A stretch of 64,000 nt of DNA from Candidatus Nitronereus thalassa (GTDB lineage: Bacteria; Nitrospirota; Nitrospiria; Nitrospirales; UBA8639), in NCBI RefSeq assembly GCF_032191465.1, contig NZ_JAQOUE010000001.1, forward strand, positions 1,984,001 through 2,048,000, read 5' to 3'. Positions 46,018 through 61,573 of this stretch are shown here, in pieces. The number at the start of each line of letters is the position of its first letter. Within the stretch, counting starts at the first letter, position 1. The notes beneath the pieces were generated by a model. The model ran no database searches and had not been told where the DNA came from. It worked only from the letters and a program-made list of their open reading frames with translations. The position numbers and the translations under genes are program-made.

Positions 46018-48132
46018 ATGAATCCATTATCCAGGCTGGAAAAAGCATTTTCATTTACCATTGGGCAACGTCTTATCACCATGGTGGTGATATTCATTCT
46101 AGCTCTGGTATCCATACTCACCTTCACCCTAAACATTGTGAAAACTCTCGAGCTTGACGGGGTAATTGTGGATATCGCAGGACGCCAACGAATGATGATT
46201 CAACAGTATTTTAGTGAAATGATGTTGGCGTCTCATGGAAATCAGCCGGACCATCAAAAAACACAAGATATATTGTTGGGCTCTCTCGATGCTTTGAAAA
46301 ATGGGGGAACCGTCATTGCGAACCTTTACACCGGCGAAAGGCTTTTGATCCCCCAGGCCCCAACAGACCAAATTCGCATTCTCTTGGATCAACAGCGCTC
46401 CCTTCTCGAAGATTATTTCACAAAAACCAAATCTTTGATTTTCCAAGCCCCAGGCCACTCTCCCAGGCCTGAATCATTTTTGTTACTCAATCGCATCCAG
46501 GGAAACCTCGAAAAGAATGCGGATGAGGTTGTCAAATTACTGAACGCTCACTCCAGAGAAAAAACACTGAATTTATTGAGAGTGGTTCCACTCATCGGAC
46601 TTCTGGTCATTATCCTGAGTGCCATACTGGCTCGCCAAGTGGCATTCGCAAACCGTAGACTCGAAAAAGAAATTGAACAACGCCAAAAAGCCGAGGATGA
46701 ACGCAATCGCTTCTTTGCGCTTTCGCCTGATTTGTTTTGCATTACGGGATTTGATGGAAAGTTCAAAGTGTTAAATCCCGCCTGGGAACATGAGCTTGGC
46801 TATTCCACTGAAGATCTTCTGGGAGAAACTTTTATGCAATTTGTTCATCCAGAAGATAAAATGTCTACTTTCGATGAGCTAGAGGGATTACGAAAAGGCA
46901 AACCAACCATTCAATTTGAGAATCGATACGTCAGCAAAGATGGTTCCCACAAATGGCTGCTGTGGAATGCGGCCCCAAGCTTAACCGATAACTCTATTTA
47001 TGCCACAGCGAGAAATATTACCAACCGCAAATTGTATGAAACAGAGCTGGCACTTCGTGATCGTTCAATTAATTCTGCCACCAACGGAATTCTTATTGCC
47101 GATGCTCGCAAGCCAGATATGCCTACGATCTATTGTAATTCCGCTTTTGAAAAAATTACGGGGTTTACAAGAGAAGAGGTTATTGGCCAAAACTGTCGTT
47201 TTCTCCAGGGGAATGATCATGCTCAACCGGGACTAGACGCCATTCGTCAGGCTATACGCGAGGGCAAGGAAGGGAAAGCCGAGCTGAGAAATTATAAAAA
47301 GGATGGGACGTTATTTTGGAATGAATTTTATGTTGCCCCTGTGAGGGATACTTACGGAAATCTCACTCACTTCATTGGGGTACAAACAGACATCACTCAA
47401 CGTAAACGACAAGAAGCCGAGCTGGCGAAAAAGACCGCGGACCTTGCTCGATCCAACGACGAGCTTCAACAATTTGCTTATGTGGCATCGCACGATCTTC
47501 AAGAGCCACTTCGCATGGTTGCCAGTTATACCCAGTTACTCAGAAAACGCTATAAGGGAAAGTTAGATGATGATGCCGATGAATTTATTGAGTTCGCGGT
47601 GGATGGCGCCAATAGAATGCAACATCTTATTCGTGATCTTCTGGAATACTCACGAGTAGGAGCTGAAACCAAACCCTTTGAAAAAACCGACTGCGAACTT
47701 GTGTTTCAAAACGTCATAAAAAATCTCACGGCTTCGGTACAAGAACATCATGCCGACATTACGCATGATGCGCTTCCGTGTATTCAAGCGAATCCAACGC
47801 TCTTGACTCAAGTCTTTCAAAACTTGATTGGAAATGCCCTAAAATTTAAAGGAAGCGCTGCACCCAAAATACACGTAGGAGCAAAGGCCCTTGTAGATGG
47901 CTGGGAATTTTCTGTCAGTGATAATGGGATAGGCATCCCCCAAGAGCAACTCGGTCGGATATTTTTAATTTTTCAACGACTCCATAGTCGAGAAGAATAT
48001 CCCGGAACCGGAATTGGGTTGGCCACGTGCAAGAGAATCGTGGATAAACATGGTGGGACCATTTGGGTGGAATCGGAGCAAGGAAGAGGATCGACATTTT
48101 ATTTCACGATCAAATCACCAGTTGCAGATTAA
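46018..48132 (+). CDS. Membrane sensor histidine kinase with PilJ/NarX-type sensory domain
   Basis: A 704-residue kinase. Membrane segment 1 (ITMVVIFILALVSILTFTL) and segment 2 (LLRVVPLIGLLVIILSAIL) bracket a ~150-residue periplasmic domain that begins VDIAGRQRMMIQQYFSEMM, the signature of the PilJ/NarX-type four-helix sensor. Two PAS domains follow (FFALSPDLFCITGFDGKFKV; ILIADARKPDMPTIYCNSAF with NCRFLQGNDHAQPG, close to a LOV/PAS-9 core), then HisKA (FAYVASHDLQEPLRM) and HATPase (DNGIGIP; GTGIGLATCKRIV). The NCRFLQ motif contains the Cys that binds flavin in LOV domains, with GxNCRFLQ conserved. It is adjacent to the sigma-54 activator and probably drives it. Confidence 0.85.
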   Translation: MNPLSRLEKAFSFTIGQRLITMVVIFILALVSILTFTLNIVKTLELDGVIVDIAGRQRMMIQQYFSEMMLASHGNQPDHQKTQDILLGSLDALKNGGTVIANLYTGERLLIPQAPTDQIRILLDQQRSLLEDYFTKTKSLIFQAPGHSPRPESFLLLNRIQGNLEKNADEVVKLLNAHSREKTLNLLRVVPLIGLLVIILSAILARQVAFANRRLEKEIEQRQKAEDERNRFFALSPDLFCITGFDGKFKVLNPAWEHELGYSTEDLLGETFMQFVHPEDKMSTFDELEGLRKGKPTIQFENRYVSKDGSHKWLLWNAAPSLTDNSIYATARNITNRKLYETELALRDRSINSATNGILIADARKPDMPTIYCNSAFEKITGFTREEVIGQNCRFLQGNDHAQPGLDAIRQAIREGKEGKAELRNYKKDGTLFWNEFYVAPVRDTYGNLTHFIGVQTDITQRKRQEAELAKKTADLARSNDELQQFAYVASHDLQEPLRMVASYTQLLRKRYKGKLDDDADEFIEFAVDGANRMQHLIRDLLEYSRVGAETKPFEKTDCELVFQNVIKNLTASVQEHHADITHDALPCIQANPTLLTQVFQNLIGNALKFKGSAAPKIHVGAKALVDGWEFSVSDNGIGIPQEQLGRIFLIFQRLHSREEYPGTGIGLATCKRIVDKHGGTIWVESEQGRGSTFYFTIKSPVAD

Positions 48133-49977: not shown

Positions 49978-49992
49978 CTTTCCCCACCATGC

Positions 49993-50031
49993 GAGACACT
50001 ATGAGACGAATATACGTCTCAAACATGTCTT
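49993..50031. promoter_or_regulatory. Nested inverted repeats, likely activator (enhancer) site 1
   Basis: TGAGACGAATATACGTCTCA (50002-50021) is a perfect 7-6-7 inverted repeat. It is flanked by an outer pair, AGACA (49994-49998) and TGTCT (50026-50030). The centre lies about 90 bp upstream of the sigma-54-like element at 50102. The half-site TGAGAC is shared with site 2. Confidence 0.7.
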
Positions 50032-50101
50032 ACATTAAACCTCTCTCTTTTCTTGCAATTTACAACATGCTGTTTTTAAATAAAATTTCTCCTAAATCAT
50101 G

Positions 50102-50118
50102 TTGGCACAAACATTGTA
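50102..50118 (+). promoter_or_regulatory. Sigma-54-like promoter of the receiver gene
   Basis: TTGGCACAAACATTGTA matches the TTGGCACG-N4-TTGC consensus with correct spacing. The -24 GG is intact; the -12 has GT in place of GC. It lies about 95 bp upstream of the start codon of the receiver gene and downstream of enhancer-like site 1. Confidence 0.6.
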
Positions 50119-50213
50119 TTGATTGGATATCATGATCGATAAATGGGCCGATGCTTTCTAGACATGTGCATTAGAAATTTAAAATCTTGGTTAAATAACA
50201 AACGGTGTGATTG

Positions 50214-50654
50214 GTGCAGGACAAACTTACAATTATCATTATAGAAGATAACCGAGCGGATGTACGGCTTCTCAAAGAAGCCTTAAGGGAATCTTTCCTT
50301 GATCCCACGTTATACATTTTAAATGATGGATCCTCAGCCATTCGCTTTTTTGACGAAATCAAACAGGGAAATTCCCAGGAGCTTCCCCATCTCATCTTGC
50401 TGGATCTCAACCTTCCTCAGATAAATGGCCTTGAGGTCCTTCAACACATTAAGGGTGATGACACTCTTAAGCGAATCCCCGTCATTGTTCTCAGCTCTTC
50501 CCAAAACCCAGATGATATTGCCAAAGCTTATGATCTACATGCGAATTGTTACCTCACCAAGCCTGTGGATCTTGAACCGTTTTTCGAAATTGTCAAAGCC
50601 GTGGAGTATTTCTGGTTCCAATTAGCCAGGCTTCCCTTTTCCTCCAAACGGTAG
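50214..50654 (+). CDS. Single-domain response regulator (Rcp1-like)
   Basis: A 146-residue receiver: IIIIEDNRADVRLLKEAL, Asp in LILLDLNLPQINGLEVL, VIVLSSSQNPDDI and Lys in YLTKPVDLEP. No output domain. The start codon is GTG 50214 or TTG 50211, with only a weak ribosome site. It is downstream of a sigma-54-like promoter and of a candidate binding site for the activator at 48232, so it may form a feedback arm on the sensor kinase. Confidence 0.85.
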   Translation: MQDKLTIIIIEDNRADVRLLKEALRESFLDPTLYILNDGSSAIRFFDEIKQGNSQELPHLILLDLNLPQINGLEVLQHIKGDDTLKRIPVIVLSSSQNPDDIAKAYDLHANCYLTKPVDLEPFFEIVKAVEYFWFQLARLPFSSKR

Positions 50655-50777
50655 AATTACCACTCACTCATTTTTTACCCAATACCATCCTTACCTTCAG
50701 TACTTTTTTGAGTTTTGAAAATCATTTTTGGGGTTTCGTCTCCCTGCATATCCACCCATCCAACTCACCGAAGAATG

Positions 50778-50823
50778 TGTCTCATCACAATATGAGACAT
50801 TTTAATAAGACATACCTCTGTCT
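50778..50823. promoter_or_regulatory. Two inverted repeats, likely activator (enhancer) site 2
   Basis: TGTCTCAT-CACAAT-ATGAGACA (50778-50799) is a perfect 8-6-8 inverted repeat. A weaker copy AGACA-TACCTC-TGTCT (50808-50823) follows with its centre 27 bp downstream. Both have the six-base spacer and half-site of enhancer-like site 1. They lie about 90-130 bp upstream of the sigma-54-like element at 50907. Confidence 0.7.
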
Positions 50824-50906
50824 CGTCTTTCAGAGCTTCTCAATAGAAATATTATTTATTTATTCATAACATATTGTTTTTAATATAATTTTATGTTTTT
50901 AAAATT

Positions 50907-50924
50907 TTGGCACGAGAATTGACA
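50907..50924 (+). promoter_or_regulatory. Sigma-54-like promoter of the SUMF1-like operon
   Basis: TTGGCACGAGAATTGACA has a perfect -24 block (TTGGCACG), a four-base spacer and TTGA at -12 (consensus TTGC). A start site about 12 bp downstream would leave a leader of roughly 50 nt before ATG 50988. Confidence 0.65.
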
Positions 50925-50987
50925 TAAATAACCAACAAGAAGGAAATTAAAACTACAAACTGTCTCATTGAAAGAAAGGACAAAGTC

Positions 50988-51275
50988 ATGGCGACCTACC
51001 AAGCAGGCAACATTTTTCCCATGGGGTCGGATGGGAAGAACCAATTGGAGCACACCTCGCACCCCTGCACGCGGTGCGGTGGCTTGTTCATCGGGGAAAG
51101 CCTTTTTGATCTCTACGACGAAACGGGGCAAATGCGACGGTGGGCGCTTCGGTGCGTGCAATGTGGGGACGTCGTGGATTCCCTCATTCTCAAGAATCGA
51201 ACATGTTCAGAACTTCCAAATCCCATGCAACAGCACCGTCGACGGTGGGCAAGGATGCAATCAGTCAACAGTTAA
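50988..51275 (+). CDS. Small zinc-ribbon protein
   Basis: A 95-residue soluble protein with two CxxC knuckles, HPCTRCGGLF and LRCVQCGDVVD, about 35 residues apart, as in a zinc ribbon. A basic tail (QQHRRRWARMQ) follows. ATG 50988 has AAGGAC upstream. A longer frame starting at 50968 overlaps it in another register and runs into the next gene, but the zinc-ribbon frame has the coding signature. First gene of the sigma-54-like operon; it may bind nucleic acid or protein. Confidence 0.75.
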   Translation: MATYQAGNIFPMGSDGKNQLEHTSHPCTRCGGLFIGESLFDLYDETGQMRRWALRCVQCGDVVDSLILKNRTCSELPNPMQQHRRRWARMQSVNS

Positions 51276-51327: not shown

Positions 51328-52272
51328 ATGAACACACTCTTCACATCCACAAAAGCAATGGTATTAACGTTGTCATTAACAATGGCTCCCTGGGCCACAG
51401 CACTGGGTTCAGACACCACCGACATGGTCCTCATTTCCAAGGGAGAGTTCATCATGGGAAGCCAGGACCACAGCGACGAGACCCCGCACCAAGTCGTCCT
51501 TGACGGGTACTACATTGATAAGTACGAGGTTTCCAACGAGAAGTATAAAAAATTCATGAGGTCCACTCAGCACCCTGCTCCAGCCTATTGGGATGACCCT
51601 CGCTTGAATGGTGCAGATCAACCAGTGGTCGGTGTTAATTGGTATGACGCCAACGCCTTTTGCGAATGGGAAGGTAAGCGGCTCCCGACCGAGGCGGAAT
51701 GGGAACGTGCGGCCAAAGGCCCTGATGGGCATCACTATCCATGGGGCCACAAGATTGATCCTACAAAGGCGAATTATGGACAAAATGTGGGAAAGACCAA
51801 GCCCGTAAATTCATATCCCGAAGGTATCAGTGGCTATGGCGTGTATAATATGGCTGGTAATGTCTTTGAGTGGGTCAGTGACTGGTATGATCCCAACTAT
51901 TTCAAAGTAAGCGCCGCGCTTAACCCTCAAGGCCCGTCCGGTGGCTACAACTTTGCCAACCAAGGTCCGGTGAAAGTGCTGAAGGGTGGCTCATGGCTGG
52001 CCCCTCAGACGTCACTTCACACCAGCCATCGATTCTGGAATCAACCGGAGAATAATTCATATGGGGTGGGACTGGGTTTCCGCTGCGCGACATCTGCCGC
52101 TGACGACAGTATGGAGTCAGTACGGTATCACTTCATGCATTCCCTCATCAGCATGGGCAAAGAAAAATGGAGCGATGCCCTGACTTCGATAGACAAGGCT
52201 CTGAAGCAAGATCCAGAAAACCTTGAATACCAAGAAACTCGCAAAATGATTTTGAAAGAAATCAAAAACTAA
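51328..52272 (+). CDS. Exported SUMF1/FGE-fold protein with C-terminal TPR, no FGE catalytic cysteines
   Basis: A 314-residue exported protein. Signal peptide ends near TALG. The SUMF1 fold begins MVLISKGEFIMGSQDHSDET and contains EVSNEKYKKFM, VNWYDANAFCEWEGKRLPTE, AEWERAAKGPDGHHYPWG and GLGFRCATSA. No Cys lies between LKGGSW and GLGFRC, where true formylglycine-generating enzymes carry their two copper-binding cysteines, so that reaction is unlikely. A TPR-like tail (WSDALTSIDKALKQDPENLE) ends the protein. AAGGAG precedes ATG 51328. It is related to NirV-type and other non-catalytic SUMF proteins. Confidence 0.87.
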   Translation: MNTLFTSTKAMVLTLSLTMAPWATALGSDTTDMVLISKGEFIMGSQDHSDETPHQVVLDGYYIDKYEVSNEKYKKFMRSTQHPAPAYWDDPRLNGADQPVVGVNWYDANAFCEWEGKRLPTEAEWERAAKGPDGHHYPWGHKIDPTKANYGQNVGKTKPVNSYPEGISGYGVYNMAGNVFEWVSDWYDPNYFKVSAALNPQGPSGGYNFANQGPVKVLKGGSWLAPQTSLHTSHRFWNQPENNSYGVGLGFRCATSAADDSMESVRYHFMHSLISMGKEKWSDALTSIDKALKQDPENLEYQETRKMILKEIKN

Positions 52273-52282
52273 TGAGAATTGT

Positions 52283-52315
52283 ATCCTGGGAGGATGAGAC
52301 TCATCCTCCCAGGAT
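52283..52315. terminator. Very strong hairpin between two SUMF1-like genes
   Basis: A 16-base arm ATCCTGGGAGGATGAG (52283-52298), one base, then its exact complement (52300-52315). No clear T tract follows, so it is probably a partial terminator or an mRNA-stability element that uncouples the two genes. The centre reads TGAGACTCA. Confidence 0.6.
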
Positions 52316-52348
52316 TTCACTTCCTACATGCCTCAGAGAGGAATGGAC

Positions 52349-53446
52349 ATGACTGAGAATTACTTCCATAAAAATGTGATTTCAAAAACGTTGTGGGTTC
52401 TTATGATCACGGTGGGGCTTACATTCCATGCCATCGAACCAGCCTCTTCGAAATCTCTCAACGTGGTTCCGGAGGACATGGCTTACATTCCCTTCGGGCT
52501 GGCAATCATGGGAATCGATAAAGACATTAAACAAAGAACCTCCGTTCAAAGTGAGACTCCCTCCCTTTATGAACGTAGAATGTCGATGCCCTGGTCCAAA
52601 GCAGCGTTTCAGGATGAAGGGCCTGCCCATTGGGTCCTCCTCAGCTCCTATCTCATAGACAAGTTTGAGGTGTCGAATCAAAAGTATGGGAAATTCATGA
52701 AGGCGACGGGACATGCAGCTCCGGCGTATTGGGATGACCCTCGCTTAAACGGCGACACGCAGCCGGTAGTGGGCGTGAACTGGTTTGATGCGAAGGCCTT
52801 TTGTGAATGGGAAGGCAAACGCCTCCCCACGGAAGCCGAATGGGAGAACGCGGCCCGAGGCCCAGAAGGACTGATCTACCCCTGGGGAAACGCTTTTGAC
52901 GCGGGCAAAGTCAACAATGGCAAACGAAATGCGTCTACGATGCCCATTGACTCTCTTGAAGAGTCTGTTAGCCCCTATGGGCTTTATCACATGGCGGGCA
53001 ATGTCTTTGAATGGGTGAACGATTGGTACGATCCAAACTATTATTCCAAAGGCCCCTTTCAACCCAATCCAGCAGGACCACCCAAAGGGGTTTGGTTGGG
53101 TGGCACAGGAACGTATGTTGATCGGCTAACAGTCGGGGAGAAAAAAGTTATCCGAGGTGGATCCTGGATTGCCGGCAATCATACCGTGACAACCACTCAT
53201 CGATTTTGGAATCACCCAATGAATAACAGCTATGGTGTGGGACTAGGATTCAGATGTGCACAGACAACCACCCAAGAAGTTGAAGATGCATTTCGAGTGT
53301 ACGCCATCAAGGCAATGAAGGAAGTGGGAATGGAGCGGTACAAGCAAGCCGGAGATTATATTGAAGAAGCCCTTAAGGTTGATCCACGGAATGAAAGTTT
53401 GTTGCGACTTAGGGACATTGTCCAAAAGGGTCAGAATCAATCTTGA
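52349..53446 (+). CDS. Exported SUMF1/FGE-fold protein with C-terminal TPR
   Basis: A 365-residue paralog of the preceding protein. After a signal-like segment, DMAYIPFGLAIMGIDKDI opens the SUMF1 domain, followed by a ~50-residue insert. Then come YLIDKFEVSNQKYGKFM, the near-identical core VVGVNWFDAKAFCEWEGKRL and GLGFRCAQTT. No cysteines lie between IRGGSW and GLGFRC. A TPR-like tail (YKQAGDYIEEALKVDPRNES) ends it. GAGAGGA precedes the start; ATG 52343 and 52328 are in-frame alternatives. It is probably exported and may pair with the first copy. Confidence 0.85.
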   Translation: MTENYFHKNVISKTLWVLMITVGLTFHAIEPASSKSLNVVPEDMAYIPFGLAIMGIDKDIKQRTSVQSETPSLYERRMSMPWSKAAFQDEGPAHWVLLSSYLIDKFEVSNQKYGKFMKATGHAAPAYWDDPRLNGDTQPVVGVNWFDAKAFCEWEGKRLPTEAEWENAARGPEGLIYPWGNAFDAGKVNNGKRNASTMPIDSLEESVSPYGLYHMAGNVFEWVNDWYDPNYYSKGPFQPNPAGPPKGVWLGGTGTYVDRLTVGEKKVIRGGSWIAGNHTVTTTHRFWNHPMNNSYGVGLGFRCAQTTTQEVEDAFRVYAIKAMKEVGMERYKQAGDYIEEALKVDPRNESLLRLRDIVQKGQNQS

Positions 53447-53522
53447 ATTTTACATCGGCGAACAACAATTCACCTCGGTGAATTAAATAAAATGGGGTAT
53501 GGCCAATAAACAGAGGTGAACC

Positions 53523-53894
53523 ATGAAAAAACAAAATTTTATAAAACTCACCATGATCGCTTGGAGCATAACCTGGGGCATGGGGTTGGCATGGGCCGGC
53601 CCTGCCGGAAGTCAATTCATCCCGCAAAATCCCGTCCAAGAGTCGCTTTACCTCGCTGGAAAAAATGTAGAGGAAGCATGGGAAGCATTTCATCATGCCG
53701 CACTCGGAGGGACTCTGGCATCACCAGATATGCAGACAAAGATAGAAGAGGCTCTCCATACATCTCGCCTTCTACTAGTCGATGCTCGGAATGCTGCAAG
53801 GGACAACGACACCAAAACCGTGTTCAAAATAACCAATCGAATTGAAAAAATTTCTGATCAAATTAAGGAAGATAGTCAAAGGCCAAAACAATGA
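53523..53894 (+). CDS. Small exported helical protein
   Basis: A 123-residue exported protein. Signal segment ends at GLAWA. The mature part is predicted all-helical, for example VEEAWEAFHHAALGGTLA and IEEALHTSRLLLVDARNAAR, ending KISDQIKEDSQRPKQ. No Cys and no recognised family. It overlaps the third SUMF1-like gene by 4 bp (ATGA), so the two are coupled and may act together. Confidence 0.72.
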   Translation: MKKQNFIKLTMIAWSITWGMGLAWAGPAGSQFIPQNPVQESLYLAGKNVEEAWEAFHHAALGGTLASPDMQTKIEEALHTSRLLLVDARNAARDNDTKTVFKITNRIEKISDQIKEDSQRPKQ

Positions 53895-54715
53895 ATACGA
53901 AATTGATCACCAGACTGCTCCTTGGCCTGATCTTTTGCCATCTCCCTGCATGGGCCAACCATCCGGAGGTAGAACGGGATGATGTATCCATGGTGAACAT
54001 ACCGGCAGGAAACTTTATCCGAGGGAGTAGCACGGGAATGGGTCGATCGGACGAAATGCCAAGAGAAAAAATATACATCGATGCTTTTTCCATTGATAAA
54101 TTCGAAGTGACCAATAAACGGTATCTGGCCTTCATTGCGGCAACGGGCCATAAAGAGCCCTATAATGTTTATGAAGAAGGTTCATTATTTAAAGTGACAG
54201 ACATTCATGATCTCCCGGTCGTCCAAGTCACATGGCATGATGCCGCGGATTACTGCCAGTGGGTGGGAAAACGTCTCCCCACGGAGGCCGAATGGGAAAA
54301 AGCGGCCAGAGGCACGGATGGGAGGATGTTTCCCTGGGGCGACGAGAAGCCATCGTCACTCCATGCCAATTACGATCGTGATTGGGCTGACAAGGCAACC
54401 CTCAAACCAGTGGGATCTTTGCCACAAGGCGCGTCCCCTTACGGGGTGCATGACATGTCTGGAAATGCCAGAGAATGGGTCCAGGATTGGTATGACAAGG
54501 ATTATTATGCCCAGGCTCCCAAGCGCAATCCTAGGGGACCCGACAAGAGCCTTCTCAAGGTGATCCGAGGAGGGTCATGGCGTAGCTTCGACTCAGACAT
54601 CAGAGCGGCGGCACGAGGCAAGGGGGGATTTGCCCTCAAAACTCACGGAACCGGGTTCCGGTGCGCTAGAGATATGTCGACAGAACACAAGATCAGGCTG
54701 CAAGGTCCAGAATGA
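53891..54715 (+). CDS. Exported SUMF1/FGE-fold protein, no TPR
   Basis: A 274-residue third paralog, lacking the TPR tail. The signal peptide (LLLGLIFCHLPAWA) is followed by VSMVNIPAGNFIRGSSTGMG, YIDAFSIDKFEVTNKRYL, VTWHDAADYCQWVGKRLPTE, AEWEKAARGTDGRMFPWGDE, DMSGNAREWVQDWYDKDYYA and TGFRCARDMS. It has no cysteines at the FGE copper site. It is closer to the general bacterial SUMF family than to the other two. Coupled to the helical protein gene before it. Confidence 0.86.
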   Translation: MNTKLITRLLLGLIFCHLPAWANHPEVERDDVSMVNIPAGNFIRGSSTGMGRSDEMPREKIYIDAFSIDKFEVTNKRYLAFIAATGHKEPYNVYEEGSLFKVTDIHDLPVVQVTWHDAADYCQWVGKRLPTEAEWEKAARGTDGRMFPWGDEKPSSLHANYDRDWADKATLKPVGSLPQGASPYGVHDMSGNAREWVQDWYDKDYYAQAPKRNPRGPDKSLLKVIRGGSWRSFDSDIRAAARGKGGFALKTHGTGFRCARDMSTEHKIRLQGPE

Positions 54716-54814
54716 TGACAATACAAGAATCCAGGAATATGGAAGTTGTTCAGAAAAAGTCTCAAATAAATGGATCTATGACAAGTCTTGTACAATGAAG
54801 GAAACGGACAAATT

Positions 54815-55402
54815 ATGAAAGTCGCCCGTCGATTTCAAATCCTATCAATCGCAGTAGCCATTGTCCTGATAGGATTCAATGTTTCCTGGCCTCATGAATA
54901 TTCCGGAGACCTCAAGGGTATAGATCCCATGATCGTGGCGGAATACATCCATGCGGTGATCGAATCGGACCGAACTCTCTATGCGATTCATGTGGTCGAG
55001 AGAATGCAAGACACCGGCACTGCCATTGCTTCAGAGAGATGGGAGGCCATGAACGCCCTACCACTACCAGCCCAAATGCTTCTACTCTCCGGAAAGCGGG
55101 TTCAGAAAATGGGAGTGGGACTCCACTATAGATTGGCAAGTCTATGGCCAATTTACGCCAAAAACGGTCCTAAAACCGACTTCGAACAGCAAGGGCTTGA
55201 GGCGGTAGTGAAAGATGGAAGCCAGCCCTACACGGATATCATTGAAGAAGGTAACACCAAATTTTTTGTGGCGATTTATGCCGATCGTGCCGTCTCAAGT
55301 GCGTGCGTTAATTGTCACAACACTCACATCCTCAGTCCGAAACGAGATCAAAAATTAGGCGATGTGATGGGGGGACTGATCATTTCTTTCCCCGTTCAGT
55401 AG
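54815..55402 (+). CDS. DUF3365 (Tll0287-like) c-type haem protein
   Basis: A 195-residue exported protein with one haem c motif, ACVNCHNTH, near the C terminus. The N-terminal segment (ILSIAVAIVLIGFNVSW) is a signal or anchor. The string MNALPLPAQMLLLSGKRVQK and the C-terminal DVMGGLIISFPVQ are family hallmarks of DUF3365, often the sensory part of redox-sensing kinases and chemoreceptors. As a free-standing exported haem protein it could carry electrons or bind gases. It is in the sigma-54-like operon, upstream of the cupredoxin-like gene. Confidence 0.85.
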   Translation: MKVARRFQILSIAVAIVLIGFNVSWPHEYSGDLKGIDPMIVAEYIHAVIESDRTLYAIHVVERMQDTGTAIASERWEAMNALPLPAQMLLLSGKRVQKMGVGLHYRLASLWPIYAKNGPKTDFEQQGLEAVVKDGSQPYTDIIEEGNTKFFVAIYADRAVSSACVNCHNTHILSPKRDQKLGDVMGGLIISFPVQ

Positions 55403-55457
55403 AACAAAATTTAGTTTTGTCATCAAATGCTATTCGATCTTTAAAATACGAGAACAC

Positions 55458-56408
55458 ATGTTGAAACTTTTCACCAAGGAAATCCAAATCAGATTAGGGA
55501 TATTTCTTTTTCCCATGATCTTTACAACCATGGACTTGGTCACAGGCCCCTACCCAGCCCTCAGTTACGAAGAAAGGACAGATTTTCAGGGAGGGCGTTT
55601 GACTGGCACGGTCGTTCTGAATGGTACTTTGCCTCAACCCAAACGATACAATCTGGTCTTGTTCCCTGATCCTTACTACTGTGGCCGAATATCAGATGGG
55701 AAAGGGTGGCGCATGTCTCCATTCATGCAATTGAGATCAAGGGATACCATTCCTGGAGTTCTTGTGTTCCTCAACAATATCGAATGGGGAAAACCTCTTC
55801 GGCTGCAACGACCCGTCGTACAAGCCAAAAACTGTGAGTTTGCCCCTTATATTACAAAGATATCTCACGGGAATACGCTCGCTTTTGAAAACTTAGACCC
55901 CGTCCCTCACGACATTGAGGTCTTCGAATATTCAGAAAAGGGAGGGAAATTTATTTTTCGCGAGCCCCTTGTAAGGAATCCCCAACTTCAGAAAAGTGAT
56001 TTCCTGACTGAAAACGGGCAAGCGAAACATCTGCCAGGTCCCAAAGTGACCCACCGGGCCTTCTCAAAAGGACCAATGGTTTTTCGATGCAGCTTTCATG
56101 AATACATGGAGGCATGGGGATTTGTCTTGAGTCATCCCTATTACTCTATCACGGGAACCTCGGGTGAATTTACGATCACTGATATTCCGCCTGGAAAGTA
56201 TCAGCTTGTGGTTTGGCATCCTCTTGGCCGGCTGGAGCAGTATATCGAGATCACCGCCTCTCACACATTGAGTCTCGACCTCGAATTTAAACCGACCGCC
56301 CCCATCACATATGCGGAAGATAAACCTCAGCCCAACCCGTTTGGCATTGATCTGTTAGGCGATAGTCAAATCGTTCCCACGGTGGAACTGCAGAAATGGG
56401 AGGACTAG
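55458..56408 (+). CDS. Exported cupredoxin-like protein with carboxypeptidase-regulatory-like domain
   Basis: A 316-residue exported protein. The first domain contains DPVPHDIEVFEYS and later MVFRCSFHEYMEAW, giving His plus C-x2-H-x2-M, the ligand set of type 1 copper (amicyanin-like loop). The second domain (about residues 235-290) contains GTSGEFTITDIPPGKYQLVV, typical of carboxypeptidase-regulatory or Cna-B-like beta sandwiches. This points to a periplasmic electron carrier or copper-binding protein. It is the last gene of the proposed sigma-54-controlled operon, next to a haem protein gene. Confidence 0.82.
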   Translation: MLKLFTKEIQIRLGIFLFPMIFTTMDLVTGPYPALSYEERTDFQGGRLTGTVVLNGTLPQPKRYNLVLFPDPYYCGRISDGKGWRMSPFMQLRSRDTIPGVLVFLNNIEWGKPLRLQRPVVQAKNCEFAPYITKISHGNTLAFENLDPVPHDIEVFEYSEKGGKFIFREPLVRNPQLQKSDFLTENGQAKHLPGPKVTHRAFSKGPMVFRCSFHEYMEAWGFVLSHPYYSITGTSGEFTITDIPPGKYQLVVWHPLGRLEQYIEITASHTLSLDLEFKPTAPITYAEDKPQPNPFGIDLLGDSQIVPTVELQKWED

Positions 56409-56500: not shown

Positions 56501-57421
56501 ATGAACATTATCATTGCAGGAGGAACCGGGTTTATTGGGAAGCACCTTTGTCAAGAATTAAGTGAACGTGAACACAAGGTGACAGTTCTCACACGGAACG
56601 CCTCCAAAGCGCGAAATGTCCTTCCCACACAAATTCATCTCAGCGAGTGGGACTGTTTAAACTGGGGTTCTCTGGAAAGCACGCTCTCCGGGTCGGATGC
56701 CGTCATCAATCTGGCCGGGGAACCGATTGCTGAGGGCCGATGGACTCCATCGCGCAAAGAACAGCTTCGCTCCAGCCGGATCGATACGACTCGCATGATT
56801 GTGAACGCGATGTCCAATCTTCCTCTGACCGTTCGCCCCAGAGTGCTTATCAATGCTTCGGGCATCGGGTATTACGGTCTTGATGAAACTAAGACCGTCG
56901 ATGAATTATCAAAAGCAGGAAATGGTTTTTTGGCCGCTTTGTGTGTGGAATGGGAAGCCGAAGCCTTGAGGGCCACTGACTATGGCCTTCGAACAGTATG
57001 CCTGAGAACCGGAATGGTCTTGGGCCAAGACGGAGGTGCTCTCCCTAAGATGCTCCTCCCTTTTCGCCTTTTTCTGGGAGGGCCAATTGGTGATGGCCAG
57101 CAACCAATTAGCTGGATTCACGTGAAAGATCACGTCCAACTCATTCAGGCTATTCTTGAACATGATTCCTATCGGGGCCCGATTAATGCTGTGTCCCCTC
57201 ATCCAGTAACTATGAAAGAGTTTTGCATTCAATTAGGCAAGGTATTAGGGAGACCCTCTTGGCTTCCAGTCCCAAGATTTGCTCTGAAGCTTGGATTGGG
57301 TGAATTATCCACGCTCATGACACATGGACAACGGGTCGACCCTTTGATGGCACAAAAACTGGGGTTCACTTTTCAATACCCCAAGCTCCCGTCTGCACTT
57401 TCGGAAATACTAGAAAAATGA
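56501..57421 (+). CDS. TIGR01777 family NAD-dependent epimerase (SDR39U1/YfcH-like)
   Basis: A 306-residue extended SDR. NAD-binding motif IIAGGTGFIGKHLCQEL, GSDAVINLAGEPIAEGRWTP, INASGIGYYG with the catalytic Tyr, and SWIHVKDHVQLIQAIL. The C-terminal DUF1731-type region ends ALSEILEK. The AAGGAGG ribosome site is clear. In many bacteria this family lies beside photolyase, YbgA/DUF1722 and B12-dependent MerR regulator genes; here the latter two are a few genes downstream. Substrate unknown. Confidence 0.9.
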   Translation: MNIIIAGGTGFIGKHLCQELSEREHKVTVLTRNASKARNVLPTQIHLSEWDCLNWGSLESTLSGSDAVINLAGEPIAEGRWTPSRKEQLRSSRIDTTRMIVNAMSNLPLTVRPRVLINASGIGYYGLDETKTVDELSKAGNGFLAALCVEWEAEALRATDYGLRTVCLRTGMVLGQDGGALPKMLLPFRLFLGGPIGDGQQPISWIHVKDHVQLIQAILEHDSYRGPINAVSPHPVTMKEFCIQLGKVLGRPSWLPVPRFALKLGLGELSTLMTHGQRVDPLMAQKLGFTFQYPKLPSALSEILEK

Positions 57422-57463
57422 TCGGAAGGACGGTGTTTCTGACATAGTTGAAAGGAAAATTTT

Positions 57464-58039
57464 ATGATCACTCATTGTTCATTCAAAGGCCTATTGATAA
57501 AAACGTTCGGATCGAGCCTCATATGCCTCTATTCCCTCATGCTGTTCAGTGTTACTGGATGGTCCATGACGGTCAACATATCCCGAGGGCAGCCAATTCC
57601 CGACGCCACACTTCTTGGTGCAGACAATACCCGTATACAAATGAACGAACTCAAGGGTCGCGTAAAAATTTTGAGCGTGGTTCCACAACTCAATACTCCT
57701 GTCTGCGATGAACAGACGCATCGATTTAGTGAAAAGAATGAGGGGTTGGATCAACACCTTCAAATTGTCACGATCAGCACGAATACCTATGAGGATCAAG
57801 CGGTCTTCGCAGAAAAAGCCCGAATTGGAAATATCACCTTTCTCTCTGACTCTCCCGATTTTGATTTTGGCCGAAAGACAGGTTTCTTGCATCCCATGCA
57901 TCAAATTTTGCAACGCGCAGTGATGGTGCTGGATGAGGAAAATGTCGTGCGGTATATTGAAATTGTACCCATGAGCCAGCTCCCTAATTTCCCGGCAGCA
58001 TTAGAGGCGGCTCGGCGTGTGCTTGGTCCTCGTCCCTAA
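57464..58039 (+). CDS. Exported thiol peroxidase-like (Tpx) protein, apparently 1-Cys
   Basis: A 191-residue peroxiredoxin of the Tpx/AhpC fold. A signal segment (SSLICLYSLMLFSVTGWS) is unusual since most Tpx are cytoplasmic. The peroxidatic site reads VPQLNTPVCDEQTHRF with the Thr and Cys conserved. The resolving Cys of E. coli Tpx (helix 3) is missing: FLSDSPDFDFGRKTG has none, and the only other Cys are in the signal. It would need an external thiol reductant. Fifth-gene spacing is tight to DUF4149 (9 bp). Confidence 0.85.
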   Translation: MITHCSFKGLLIKTFGSSLICLYSLMLFSVTGWSMTVNISRGQPIPDATLLGADNTRIQMNELKGRVKILSVVPQLNTPVCDEQTHRFSEKNEGLDQHLQIVTISTNTYEDQAVFAEKARIGNITFLSDSPDFDFGRKTGFLHPMHQILQRAVMVLDEENVVRYIEIVPMSQLPNFPAALEAARRVLGPRP

Positions 58040-58047
58040 GAGGTGTC

Positions 58048-58512
58048 ATGATGGTAGAAACTCTGGCCTATCTCCATATCCTCGCGATTGCCGTGCTCGT
58101 AGGAAAGGTCGTTTTTTTATCCTTCGTGACCGCCCCCGTGCTCGCACGAACTCTGGACCCTGATTCGTTTGCGAAGGTCGTGCGCCAACTCTTTCCCCAG
58201 TACTATGCGCTGGGAATGGTGGCGGCCACCATAGGATGGGCCACGATCACAAGCATCGGTCTTTTAAAAGGGTTCGGCCCCATTGATCTGATTTCTTCCA
58301 CCCTGTGGCTTGGCATCTTGACCATTGAAAATTACTGTCGATCGCCTCTGACACCAAGAATTAATGCTTTGAGTGATCGATTGAAGGAGGCAGACCAACG
58401 AGGACTAAACATCCTTTCCGTTAAAAAAGATCGAGATGATCTCCATCGCCTGTCTGTACAACTCAATAGCCTGGTGCTGATCATTGGATTGTGCTTGATA
58501 GGATTGATCTAA
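58048..58512 (+). CDS. DUF4149 membrane protein
   Basis: A 154-residue protein with four hydrophobic segments. LHILAIAVLVGKVVFLSFV, FAKVVRQLFPQYYALGMV and LVLIIGLCLIGLI are consistent with DUF4149. Ala/Pro-rich TAPVLARTLDPDSF lies at the start of the second segment. Function unknown; it is in the run between Tpx and the PDZ protein. Confidence 0.78.
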   Translation: MMVETLAYLHILAIAVLVGKVVFLSFVTAPVLARTLDPDSFAKVVRQLFPQYYALGMVAATIGWATITSIGLLKGFGPIDLISSTLWLGILTIENYCRSPLTPRINALSDRLKEADQRGLNILSVKKDRDDLHRLSVQLNSLVLIIGLCLIGLI

Positions 58513-58538
58513 GCCTACGACCCAACAAGGAGAATAAA

Positions 58539-59018
58539 ATGAAAACATCGGCACAAACCTCATTTCTTCAGTATTCCCTTTATTCCGAGCGTTGGATTCT
58601 GCTGACTAGTTTCCTCGGAATCCTGCTCCTGTTCCCAATCAAGGGCCATAGTCAGGAGAGCTATCCAATCCAAAGCAACCCTCATGGGGACATGGAACAA
58701 CCCATGCTGCCACCACCAGGAATTATCGGAGTGGCCTTGCATCTCACCGCAGAGCGTATCGGGGACCCTGCGGGATTATTTATCAGGGCCACTCATCCTG
58801 CGGGGCCAGGAGCCAGAGCAGGACTCGCCCATGGACAAGAAATCTTGGCCGTGGATGGTCAACCAGTCAAAGGCAAAACCTATCGTGAAGTCGTCGCGAT
58901 TATACGGGGAGAAATCGGGAAATCCGTGACACTTACTGTGAGAACGTTTTCAAATGTTAAAGAAGTGAAAATAATTCGTGTGAGTGAAGACATGTTATCG
59001 GAAGAGAAACACACCTGA
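58539..59018 (+). CDS. PDZ-domain protein, exported
   Basis: A 159-residue exported protein. A signal segment (WILLTSFLGILLLFPIKG) is followed by a PDZ domain with IGVALHLTAERIGDPAGLFI, GPGARAGLAHGQEILAVDGQ and VVAIIRGEIGKSVTLTV. No protease domain is attached, so it may be an adaptor or a reduced C-terminal protease relative. ATG 58539 has AAGGAG seven nt upstream. It lies in the tight gene run with Tpx and YbgA. Confidence 0.82.
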   Translation: MKTSAQTSFLQYSLYSERWILLTSFLGILLLFPIKGHSQESYPIQSNPHGDMEQPMLPPPGIIGVALHLTAERIGDPAGLFIRATHPAGPGARAGLAHGQEILAVDGQPVKGKTYREVVAIIRGEIGKSVTLTVRTFSNVKEVKIIRVSEDMLSEEKHT

Positions 59019-59070
59019 TCAAGAGGTATGGATAACCAAGTCTCGTCTTCACGGACTTAAGACAATTATT

Positions 59071-60072
59071 ATGAAAACCACCCCCTCCACCGCAAAACCG
59101 CATGAAGATAAAAAGGAACCCCTTCCTTCAACACTACGCATAGGGATCAGTCACTGCCTGCTAGGTGAAGAAGTGAGGTTTGATGGTGGGCATAAACGTG
59201 ATGGTTTCTTAGCCGACACCTTTAGTCAATTTGTCGAATGGGTCCCCGTCTGCCCGGAATACGAGGCGGGGTTGGGCATTCCCCGTGAGGCCATGCGCTT
59301 GGTGGGAAATTCGGACAATCCGACCCTTATTACGATTAAAACAAAAAAAGACCACACAGCCCTTCTGAAAAATTATTCTCAGAAAAAGGTCAAAGAACTC
59401 GAAACCATGAATTTAGATGGCTTTGTCTTTAAGAAGGATTCCCCAAGCTGCGGAGTTCATCGGGTCCGAATTTATAATGACCATGGAATGCCCAACCCAC
59501 ATGGCAGAGGACTCTTTGCCCAAAGATATATTGAAAGCAATCCTCTGATTCCCGTGGAAGAAGAGGGGCGGCTCAATGATCCGGTATTAAGGGAAAACTT
59601 TGTCGAACGTGTGTTCTGCTACCAACGATGGCGGCTCCTGAATCGCGCTCGGGTCAACCGCAGGGCACTTGTCGAGTTTCATACAAAACACAAGTTTCTG
59701 TTGTTAGCCCATGGTCGGACCCATTATCAAAAACTTGGTCGCCTCGTGGCGGATAGTAAAAAGTATTCTCCAAGTGAATTGACGACCGAGTATGGAAATC
59801 TGTTCATGGAAGCCCTCAAAACGAAGGCAACTACGCGAAAACACATGGATGTACTCCAACATCTCGCCGGATTTCTTAAAAAACAATTGTCTCGTAATGA
59901 ACGCCAGGAATTAGTCGAAGTCATAGAAGACTATCACCGTGGCTTGACCCCTCTCATCGTTCCTCTCACCTTGATTATTCATTACGTCAAGATCCATCAG
60001 ATTAGTTATCTGCTCGATCAGGTCTATCTGACGCCTCATCCCAAAGAACTGATGTTACGCAACCATGTCTAA
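59071..60072 (+). CDS. DUF523-DUF1722 fusion protein (YbgA-like)
   Basis: A 333-residue protein. The DUF523 part begins RIGISHCLLGEEVRFDGGHK, then FVEWVPVCPEYEAGLGIPRE and FKKDSPSCGVHRVRIY, with Cys in each motif suggesting metal or thiol chemistry. The DUF1722 part has LVEFHTKHKFLLLAHGRTHY and LVEVIEDYHRGLTPLIVPLT. YbgA-like genes commonly adjoin photolyase genes and B12-dependent MerR regulators. Its last 8 bases overlap the regulator gene. It has been linked to photolyase function; the reaction is unknown. Confidence 0.88.
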   Translation: MKTTPSTAKPHEDKKEPLPSTLRIGISHCLLGEEVRFDGGHKRDGFLADTFSQFVEWVPVCPEYEAGLGIPREAMRLVGNSDNPTLITIKTKKDHTALLKNYSQKKVKELETMNLDGFVFKKDSPSCGVHRVRIYNDHGMPNPHGRGLFAQRYIESNPLIPVEEEGRLNDPVLRENFVERVFCYQRWRLLNRARVNRRALVEFHTKHKFLLLAHGRTHYQKLGRLVADSKKYSPSELTTEYGNLFMEALKTKATTRKHMDVLQHLAGFLKKQLSRNERQELVEVIEDYHRGLTPLIVPLTLIIHYVKIHQISYLLDQVYLTPHPKELMLRNHV

Positions 60073-60997
60073 ATTTCAGTGTAACCCATCAGGATTCGGC
60101 ATCAAGCATCTGTCGGAGATCACAGGGTTAAGTGCCCATGTCATAAGAAAGTGGGACCAACGGTACAATTTCCTATCGCCTTATCGTGCTGAAAATGGTT
60201 ACCGTCTGTTTACTCCGATAGATCTTCAATTATTGATCTTTATTAAATCTCAGGTCGCCCTGGGTAACACTATTGGACAACTCGCCCTTCGAGGCCGGGA
60301 GGCGCTCATCGCCGAAATGAATTCCGGTCCCCTAGACCTGAGTGTATTTCCCGTGGAAGTTCAATCCCAGGTTGCTGAGATACTGGACGCAGCAAGGAAG
60401 GGAAACCAGGCAGCCGTCGAATACACCCTATATCTTTTCGTTCAGCACTATGGCATTGACCGAGCGTTGATCGACATATTTTTTCCAATCCTTCGGACCA
60501 TTGGCGATCTTTGGCATCAAGGGCGTATTGGCATTCCAGGAGAGCAATCAGTTTCTCAAACCATTCGTAGAGTGCTTGCTGAAGATATTTTACTTCAAAA
60601 GGGAGCAGAGAAGCCGCAGGCATTGATCGCCTGCATGCCCAATGATTACCATGAAATCGGCGCAATGGCAGCGTTGCGGCTTCTTCAAAAGTGCGGCTGG
60701 AAAGCCCTTTACCTTGGTGCGGATTCGAGTATTGAAATTGTTCGACTGGCTTGCACCCGGAGGCAGGCACAACTGGTTCTATTTTCCTGCGTCGTTGAGC
60801 GCTCCCCTGAAGAAATGAAAGCCCTCATTGACAATATCGTGAAACATTTACTGCCTATCACCAACGTAGTCATAGGAGGTCAAGGAGGTTTGTTATATAT
60901 TGACTGGCTTGAACGAAAGGGTATCCGGTATATTGGAAAATTGGAAGCCGTAAAGGAACTCCATCCCCGATCATTGGAACATTCACGGATAGCCTAA
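60065..60997 (+). CDS. MerR-family regulator with B12-binding domain (CarH/LitR-like)
   Basis: A 310-residue regulator. The MerR DNA-binding domain reads GIKHLSEITGLSAHVIRKWD then QRYNFLSPYRAENGYRLFTP. The middle helical domain has IGDLWHQGRIGIPGEQSVSQ, equal to the W-x9-E-H capping motif of CarH except that the final His is Gln (W-x9-E-Q); the His right after the Trp is kept. The Rossmann domain has the cobalt-ligand motif D-x-H-x-x-G as NDYHEIGAMA. CarH binds adenosylcobalamin in the dark as a tetramer and falls apart in light. It is coupled to the YbgA-like gene. Confidence 0.87.
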   Translation: MSKFQCNPSGFGIKHLSEITGLSAHVIRKWDQRYNFLSPYRAENGYRLFTPIDLQLLIFIKSQVALGNTIGQLALRGREALIAEMNSGPLDLSVFPVEVQSQVAEILDAARKGNQAAVEYTLYLFVQHYGIDRALIDIFFPILRTIGDLWHQGRIGIPGEQSVSQTIRRVLAEDILLQKGAEKPQALIACMPNDYHEIGAMAALRLLQKCGWKALYLGADSSIEIVRLACTRRQAQLVLFSCVVERSPEEMKALIDNIVKHLLPITNVVIGGQGGLLYIDWLERKGIRYIGKLEAVKELHPRSLEHSRIA

Positions 60998-61042
60998 AAA
61001 AGTTATTAGCAATGTGACGAATATGAAAAAGGAGTGGCAAAC

Positions 61043-61573
61043 ATGAGTGATGAAACAAAAGGGGTCATACTCGTTGGCCATGGCGGAATCCCCAAGGGAT
61101 TTCCCGGTGACCTTGTGACAAAATTAAAACGACTCGAAGCCCAACGGAGGGCAGCGGGGAAACCCATGTCCGAAGAAGAATATGAACTTGACCAAAAAAT
61201 TCGGCTCTGGCCACGAACGCCAGAAACTGATCCTTACCAAGCCGGGCTTGAACGGTTGGCCACACAATTAAAACCTCTCACCGATGGCGGGCATTTTTCA
61301 ATCGCATATAACGAATTCTGCACCCCCACTTTGGAGGAGGCCATTGAAAAACAAATTGCTGAGGGGGCCAAGGACATCACGGTGGTATCTACCATGTTCA
61401 CCCCTGGAGGCTCCCATTCGGAATATGAAATTCCTGAGGAAATGGCTGAGCTGCGAAAGAAGCATCCGGGAGTCACGCTGACTTACGCCTGGCCTTTTGA
61501 TCTTGGCAAAGTTGCTGAAATGCTAGCGGAACATATCCAACGATTCCAAGCGCAACCCGCGGGAAAGAGTTGA
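61043..61573 (+). CDS. CbiX/SirB-like chelatase
   Basis: A 176-residue protein of the small CbiX/ferrochelatase-like family. The two metal-site His are in VILVGHGGIPKGFP and FTPGGSHSEYEIPEEM. A charged insert (DQKIRLWPRTPETDPYQ) near residue 50-65 is typical of the ferrochelatase-like subgroup found with B12-light regulators. It probably inserts cobalt, nickel or iron into a tetrapyrrole. GGAG lies about 9 nt before ATG 61043. It is the last gene of the run. Confidence 0.82.
   Translation: MSDETKGVILVGHGGIPKGFPGDLVTKLKRLEAQRRAAGKPMSEEEYELDQKIRLWPRTPETDPYQAGLERLATQLKPLTDGGHFSIAYNEFCTPTLEEAIEKQIAEGAKDITVVSTMFTPGGSHSEYEIPEEMAELRKKHPGVTLTYAWPFDLGKVAEMLAEHIQRFQAQPAGKS

Follow-up and report, generated by a model that had tools for sequence, protein, structure and literature searches.

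Activators of the NtrC family (bEBPs) combine a receiver, an AAA+ domain with a GAFTGA loop and a Fis-type helix-turn-helix (HTH), and are associated with -24/-12 sigma-54 promoters, upstream half-site arrays, a possible bend site between the two, and local targets. In the PrsK/PrsR PEP-CTERM system, a kinase is paired with a sigma-54 response regulator; the motif and the -24/-12 element were obtained from comparative genomics, and the activator was assigned by phylogenetic profile (PMC1569441). The sigma-54 regulome of Desulfovibrio includes dedicated activators whose inverted-repeat sites (e.g., yGTCA-N6-TGACr) adjoin the genes that encode them (PMC4641369). Light regulation by LitR/CarH, and short-LOV/LitR in Pseudomonas, have also been described (PMC9758184), and RudS genes occur in light-responsive operons with LitR (PMC11417400).

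The locus analyzed here lies in a 64,000-nucleotide stretch of the Candidatus Nitronereus thalassa genome (the window), and shares all of the above traits of the NtrC family. It differs in its half-site (TRAGACA), its mixed inverted and direct arrays, a -12 element that is almost never TTGC, and an activator that reaches no NCBIfam equivalog cut-off. The combination of a kinase with a sigma-54 response regulator and of a motif tied to the activator by comparative genomics resembles PrsK/PrsR (PMC1569441); however, the TIGR02915 cut-off is missed, the target operon has no PEP-CTERM surface-protein gene set, and the input would be LOV. A dedicated activator with inverted-repeat sites by its own gene is also found in Desulfovibrio, although half-site, phylum, and inputs are different here. 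The presence of RudS and of a MerR-B12 regulator in one operon, together with a putative LOV photoreceptor, recalls the LitR/CarH and short-LOV/LitR systems (PMC9758184) and the RudS operons (PMC11417400), whereas the LOV histidine kinase of this locus would work through a phosphorylated sigma-54 activator and not by LOV-LitR binding or B12 photolysis. Searches of the open-access literature found no paper on a LOV kinase that drives a sigma-54 activator, and nothing relevant on TGAGACA together with sigma54.

The repeats of this locus are very likely (probability of about 0.86) enhancers of the sigma-54 activator encoded just upstream, which would act on two sigma-54 promoters, P1 and P2. A preliminary description of this DNA had listed the repeats, the promoters, and the activator, all of which are retained below; it had overlooked an IHF-like box, a LOV kinase, and a 10-kb operon of light type. 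The regulatory features are as follows (negative numbers are base pairs from the start of a site to the -24 TGGCA).

46018-48132, plus strand: sensor histidine kinase with two PAS regions (the second is LOV), HisKA, and HATPase (Pfam); putative input to the activator
47026-47418, plus strand: LOV (flavin blue-light) domain, GQNCRFLQ and FMN-contact R/N/N/Q residues
48232-49977, plus strand: sigma-54 activator (bEBP) with receiver, central region, AAA+ with GAFTGA, and Fis-type HTH; recognition helix SRATFYRWL
49992-50032, plus strand: putative P1 enhancer, CGAGACA 49992-49998 (-111), TGAGACG 50002-50008 (-101), CGTCTCA 50015-50021 (-88), and TGTCTTA 50026-50032 (-77)
50063-50075, plus strand: IHF-like box of P1, CAACATGCTGTTT (-40); position conserved in orthologues, this copy scoring just 7/9
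50102-50118, plus strand: P1, sigma-54-like -24/-12, TTGGCAC-AAACA-TTGTA; read directly, conserved in 13 genomes
50211-50654, plus strand: stand-alone CheY/Rcp1-like receiver protein (Pfam Response_reg), putatively driven by P1; orthologues 47-84% identical, in the same place
50778-50784, minus strand: P2 distal half-site TGTCTCA (-130), left arm of the 8-6-8 repeat; aligned, kept in both genera
50793-50799, plus strand: P2 extra half-site TGAGACA (-115), right arm of the 8-6-8 repeat, inside a 10-bp insertion particular to the window's genus
50806-50825, plus strand: P2 core operator TAAGACA-TACCTC-TGTCTCG (-102/-89), equivalent to the position-invariant TGAGACA-N6-TGTCTCA of relatives
50867-50879, plus strand: IHF-like box of P2, TAACATATTGTTT (-41); a similar TAAC...TGAAA word lies exactly at -41 in nearly all P2 relatives
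50906-50922, plus strand: P2, sigma-54-like -24/-12, TTTGGCACG-AGAA-TTGA; read directly, aligned with relatives

Direct reading placed the repeats and both TTGGCAC-N5-TTG elements where they had first been reported. The 7-6-7 repeat at 50002-50021 is TGAGACG-AATATA-CGTCTCA, flanked by the two outer half-sites of the P1 enhancer; the 8-6-8 repeat at 50778-50799 is TGTCTCAT-CACAAT-ATGAGACA; and the 5-6-5 repeat at 50808-50823, AGACA-TACCTC-TGTCT, extends to the full words TAAGACA (50806-50812) and TGTCTCG (50819-50825). The TGGCAC-N5-TTG elements occupy 50103-50116 (P1) and 50908-50921 (P2), and each is preceded by four half-sites. A further TGTCTCA half-site (50961-50967) lies in the leader downstream of the P2 -12 element and is conserved in G001, the other species of the genus.

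The window is rich in palindromes with a six-base spacer (13 of the 7-6-7 type vs. 5.1 in shuffles, and five of the 8-6-8 type vs. 0.85), and symmetry alone is therefore weak evidence; palindrome statistics were rejected as a sole argument because they do not discriminate. This abundance, and the position of both sets in the gap behind an upstream gene, would suit chance palindromes or RNA hairpins acting as terminator or attenuator for the genes upstream. The clustering of one half-site at P1 and P2, on the other hand, is beyond chance expectation: the two intergenic stretches contain 3 and 5 GAGAC/GTCTC words, numbers reached in 1/5000 and 0/5000 dinucleotide shuffles. Furthermore, it is the half-sites that are conserved and not the hairpins, the direct repeats at P1 of a second genus are unable to fold a hairpin, and the spacing from the P2 half-sites to the -24 element is constant within 1-2 bp. 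Direct-repeat arrays conserved at a fixed distance from the -24 element already contradict an origin by chance or as hairpins, which is thus extremely improbable.

The genome (4.01 Mb) contains 50 TGGCAC-N5-TTG sites in all. A scan for half-sites upstream of these sites identified arrays at P1 and P2 only: three TRAGAC/GTCTYA words at -160 to -50 of each, none at 46 of the other 48 sites, and one at two of them. The exact P1 and P2 operators are each single-copy in the genome. Given these arrays and unique operators, the activator looks dedicated to its neighboring genes rather than to a large regulon. With the looser pattern of TGTCTCA or TGAGACA 60-90 bp before TGGCAY-N5-TT, 27 matches vs. 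3 and 31 vs. 2 were obtained relative to reversed-pattern controls, several of the matches being coding; these several were rejected as coding coincidences.

Activator orthologues (68-92% identical) were present in 13 genomes of two genera, including the window's own. Half-site arrays with TGGCAY-N5-TTG were found downstream of the activator in all 13, followed, where checked, by the orthologous receiver gene. The promoter of the target operon carried an array in 12/12 readable genomes with the activator, and the array was kept at the same distances where the operon is about 10 kb from the activator (G012) or on another contig (G044). The P2 array of G015 is degraded. In G024, a contig end truncates the operon promoter, and a P2-like promoter precedes a different secreted-protein gene. 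This gene encodes a secreted Calx-beta-like protein, and its P2-type enhancer and promoter (-120/-102/-89; L181/L311, G024:C69) would make it an extra regulon member in one genome. None of the 17 homologous FGE operons in genomes without the activator was preceded by an array, with limited upstream sequence readable in four. The exact TGAGACA-N6-TGTCTCA occurred once per genome in seven genomes with the activator (six at the operon P2 and one, in G024, before the different gene), and in none of the 13 searched genomes without it. Two nearly identical copies of another arrangement were observed (L186/L198; G011:C1:394378 and 415448), in which a TGAGACA/TGTCTCA pair is followed by a TTGGCACGACAATTGCTA site and then by a probable lpxC-like gene.

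Alignment of the P2 regions revealed an invariant core, TGAGACA-N6-TGTCTCA, at -102/-89, and a distal TGTCTCA at -120 in the second genus and at -130 in the window's genus, where alone a 10-bp insertion adds one half-site. In this alignment, the 8-6-8 repeat is the conserved distal half-site joined to the half-site in the genus-specific insertion. All three repeats are built on one half-site, as first noted, but the half-site is the unit and the three repeats are not equivalent. The 5-6-5 repeat, first described as the weaker one, is the conserved core operator in the aligned relatives. P1 contains an inverted pair in the window's genus and direct repeats every 10-11 bp in the second genus. 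The latter, without dyads, are odd for a two-fold symmetric HTH dimer and count against the enhancer model. Comparison of the genomes establishes the arrays, their fixed spacing, and their co-occurrence with the activator.

The activator gene, which had been noted as next door, lies immediately upstream of the P1 enhancer. Its product contained the sigma-54 interaction AAA+ domain above the Pfam cut-off (Sigma54_activat, PF00158, 235.7 bits vs. 20.2), Response_reg, and HTH_8, with an intact GAFTGA loop and intact Walker A/B motifs (GETGTGKE and FLDEIGD) read in the sequence. Assignments as an NtrC (NR(I)) equivalog (TIGR01818, 376.3 bits, below the cut-off of 558.6) and as PrsR (TIGR02915, 353.2 bits, below 502.6) were rejected.

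The half-sites might serve some other activator or a repressor, with the neighboring activator working elsewhere. There are approximately 41 activator-like matches in the genome, and half-sites near -77 to -130 are conceivable as repressor sites. However, the arrays track a single activator orthologue across genomes, even with an unlinked operon, and paralogues with different recognition helices adjoin correspondingly different half-sites; service to another regulator is therefore unlikely. Elsewhere in the order, activators with about 50% identity likewise have TGNNACA-type words beside downstream sigma-54-like sites, and the middle letters vary with the recognition helix of the C-terminal Fis-type HTH, the predicted enhancer-binding domain. 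Helices SRATFYRW and SRATFYRR go with TGAGACA (29/30 and 7/9 words), SRVTLYRR with TGAAACA and TGTAACA, ARLTLYRR/SRLTIYRR with TGTAACA, and SRSTFYRR with mixed half-sites nearby; the word class was picked after examples had been seen, and this comparison is descriptive and not a blind test. In the activator tree, the TGAGACA lineages do not form a single well-supported clade, and the helix/half-site match, which is established by this comparison, would thus be either ancestral or have arisen more than once. Paralogues with other helices stand beside TGAAACA or TGTAACA half-sites, and this correlation, the strongest evidence on the identity of the binder, points to the neighboring activator.

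One paralogous activator of the same genome (L174, G000:C2:361500-373500) has TGAAACA/TGTAACA arrays and its own TGGCAT-N5-TTG before a secreted-protein gene. No arrays were found downstream of the paralogues L048/L049 (48% identical), and a local enhancer is therefore not universal in the activator subfamily. The reading of the repeats as enhancers of the neighboring activator, as first proposed, is favored by the arrays in 13/13 orthologue genomes and 0/17 activator-less operons, by the unlinked operons that keep the array, and by the half-site that varies with the helix.

The genome encodes RpoN (PF04552, 197.5 bits vs. a cut-off of 22.8; G000:C2:131750-132232). The -24 TTGGCAC is perfect and conserved at both promoters, whereas the -12 element is TTGT (P1) or TTGA (P2) rather than the TTGC of the canonical TGGCAC-N5-TTGC, which counts against the enhancer model. 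This deviation (GT and GA instead of GC) had been pointed out before, and is itself conserved: TTGC was present in just 1/25 orthologous promoters and absent in 24. The stretch between enhancer and -24 element contains an IHF-like YAACNNNTTGAWW box at either -40 to -43 or -50/-51, with at least 8/9 matches in 25/41 promoters vs. 7 expected. In the second-genus P1 regions with scorable boxes, the nearest half-site and the box are 39-41 bp apart, while the spacing between box and promoter varies. The box may be an IHF site; its matches to just 7-9 of 9 positions count against this part of the model.

The kinase gene upstream of the activator is conserved in the orthologue loci. The LOV domain is canonical; it had a best E-value of 1.7e-34 against PDB (phmmer), with matches including phototropin, YtvA, and aureochrome, and contained the photoactive Cys in GxNCRFLQ and the FMN-contact residues R, N, N, and Q. 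Among the 13 orthologous kinases, 11 have the LOV motif and two have NCRFLY, and the Cys is kept in all. The stretches retrieved around other members of the activator subfamily contained no LOV motif. The pairing of kinase and activator is suggested by adjacency and domain homology, and on the same grounds a blue-light input to the circuit is rather likely.

PAS/LOV domains are able to sense other cues. It is possible, though clearly less likely than a light input, that the module is real and has no light response, the kinase sensing redox, a ligand, or membrane state via its N-terminal or PAS regions. In favor of this alternative are the additional PAS and the N-terminal region of the kinase, the capacity of LOV-like PAS domains for redox responses, and the FLY in place of FLQ in two orthologues; on the other hand, the photoactive Cys is kept in 13/13 orthologues, and the operon genes RudS, LitR-like, and ThyD-like are of light-stress type. 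The features of the P2 operon are the following.

50988-51275, plus strand: zinc-ribbon-like small protein (CxxC...CxxC), first P2-operon gene; read directly, no Pfam or NCBIfam match
51328-52272, plus strand: FGE-sulfatase-domain protein 1 (PF03781)
52328-53446, plus strand: FGE-sulfatase-domain protein 2 (PF03781)
53523-54715, plus strand: 123-aa protein and FGE-sulfatase-domain protein 3 (PF03781 for the second); order conserved
54788-56408, plus strand: Tll0287-like protein and 316-aa protein (Pfam)
56501-60072, plus strand: TIGR01777/ThyD-like epimerase, peroxiredoxin-like, DUF4149, PDZ, and RudS-type (2-thiouracil desulfurase and DUF1722) proteins; order conserved
60065-61573, plus strand: MerR and B12-binding (LitR/CarH-like) regulator and CbiX; probable end of the P2 operon

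The gene order of the P2 operon is conserved among relatives. The zinc-ribbon-like family was found in 34/41 genomes searched; relatives contain many copies per genome, several adjoining sigma-54 activator genes. Three FGE-sulfatase-domain proteins stand in one operon (51328-54715), with no sulfatase among the annotated domains of the operon. The LitR/CarH-like gene (60065-60997) encodes MerR and B12-binding domains with DYHEIG (the DxHxxG box), and has W-x9-EQ here vs. W-x9-EH in two second-genus copies. In 13/17 activator-less loci (L143, L145, L146, L148-L152, and L155-L159), the same operon has a LitR-like gene as its neighbor, in most cases in divergent orientation and no more than about 250 bp away, whereas in the activator-bearing genera the LitR-like gene is at the operon end (window genome, G012, and G021) or was not found between RudS and CbiX. 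This distribution would be most simply explained by a transfer of control from LitR to the LOV-kinase/sigma-54 pair. The chances are about even for a broader proposal, namely that two or three helix residues (A/F, V/L, L/L) set the middle letters of TGNNACA in the wider activator subfamily, jointly with a LitR to LOV/sigma-54 rewiring of a light-stress operon in two genera, LitR being moved to the operon end or lost.

In the proposed mechanism, the signal would most likely come from the adjacent LOV-domain kinase, as blue light or flavin redox state. The phosphorylated activator would bind the TRAGACA half-sites via its Fis-type HTH, and a DNA bend at the IHF-like box, about 40 bp upstream of the -24 element, would help it to reach RNA polymerase-sigma-54. 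Its AAA+ (GAFTGA) domain would then open P1 (receiver gene, 50211-50654) and P2 (the operon of about 10 kb, 50988 to ~61573), and the receiver made from P1 may compete for or relay phosphoryl groups.

The locus would constitute a complete, testable circuit of light-type sensor, sigma-54 activator, exact enhancer, and target operon. The open-access literature searched contains few studies of sigma-54 in this lineage. The set of paralogous activators provides material for the DNA-recognition rules of Fis-type activators, and the relatives with and without the activator would represent a natural experiment in which one type of photoreceptor control was swapped for another on the same operon.
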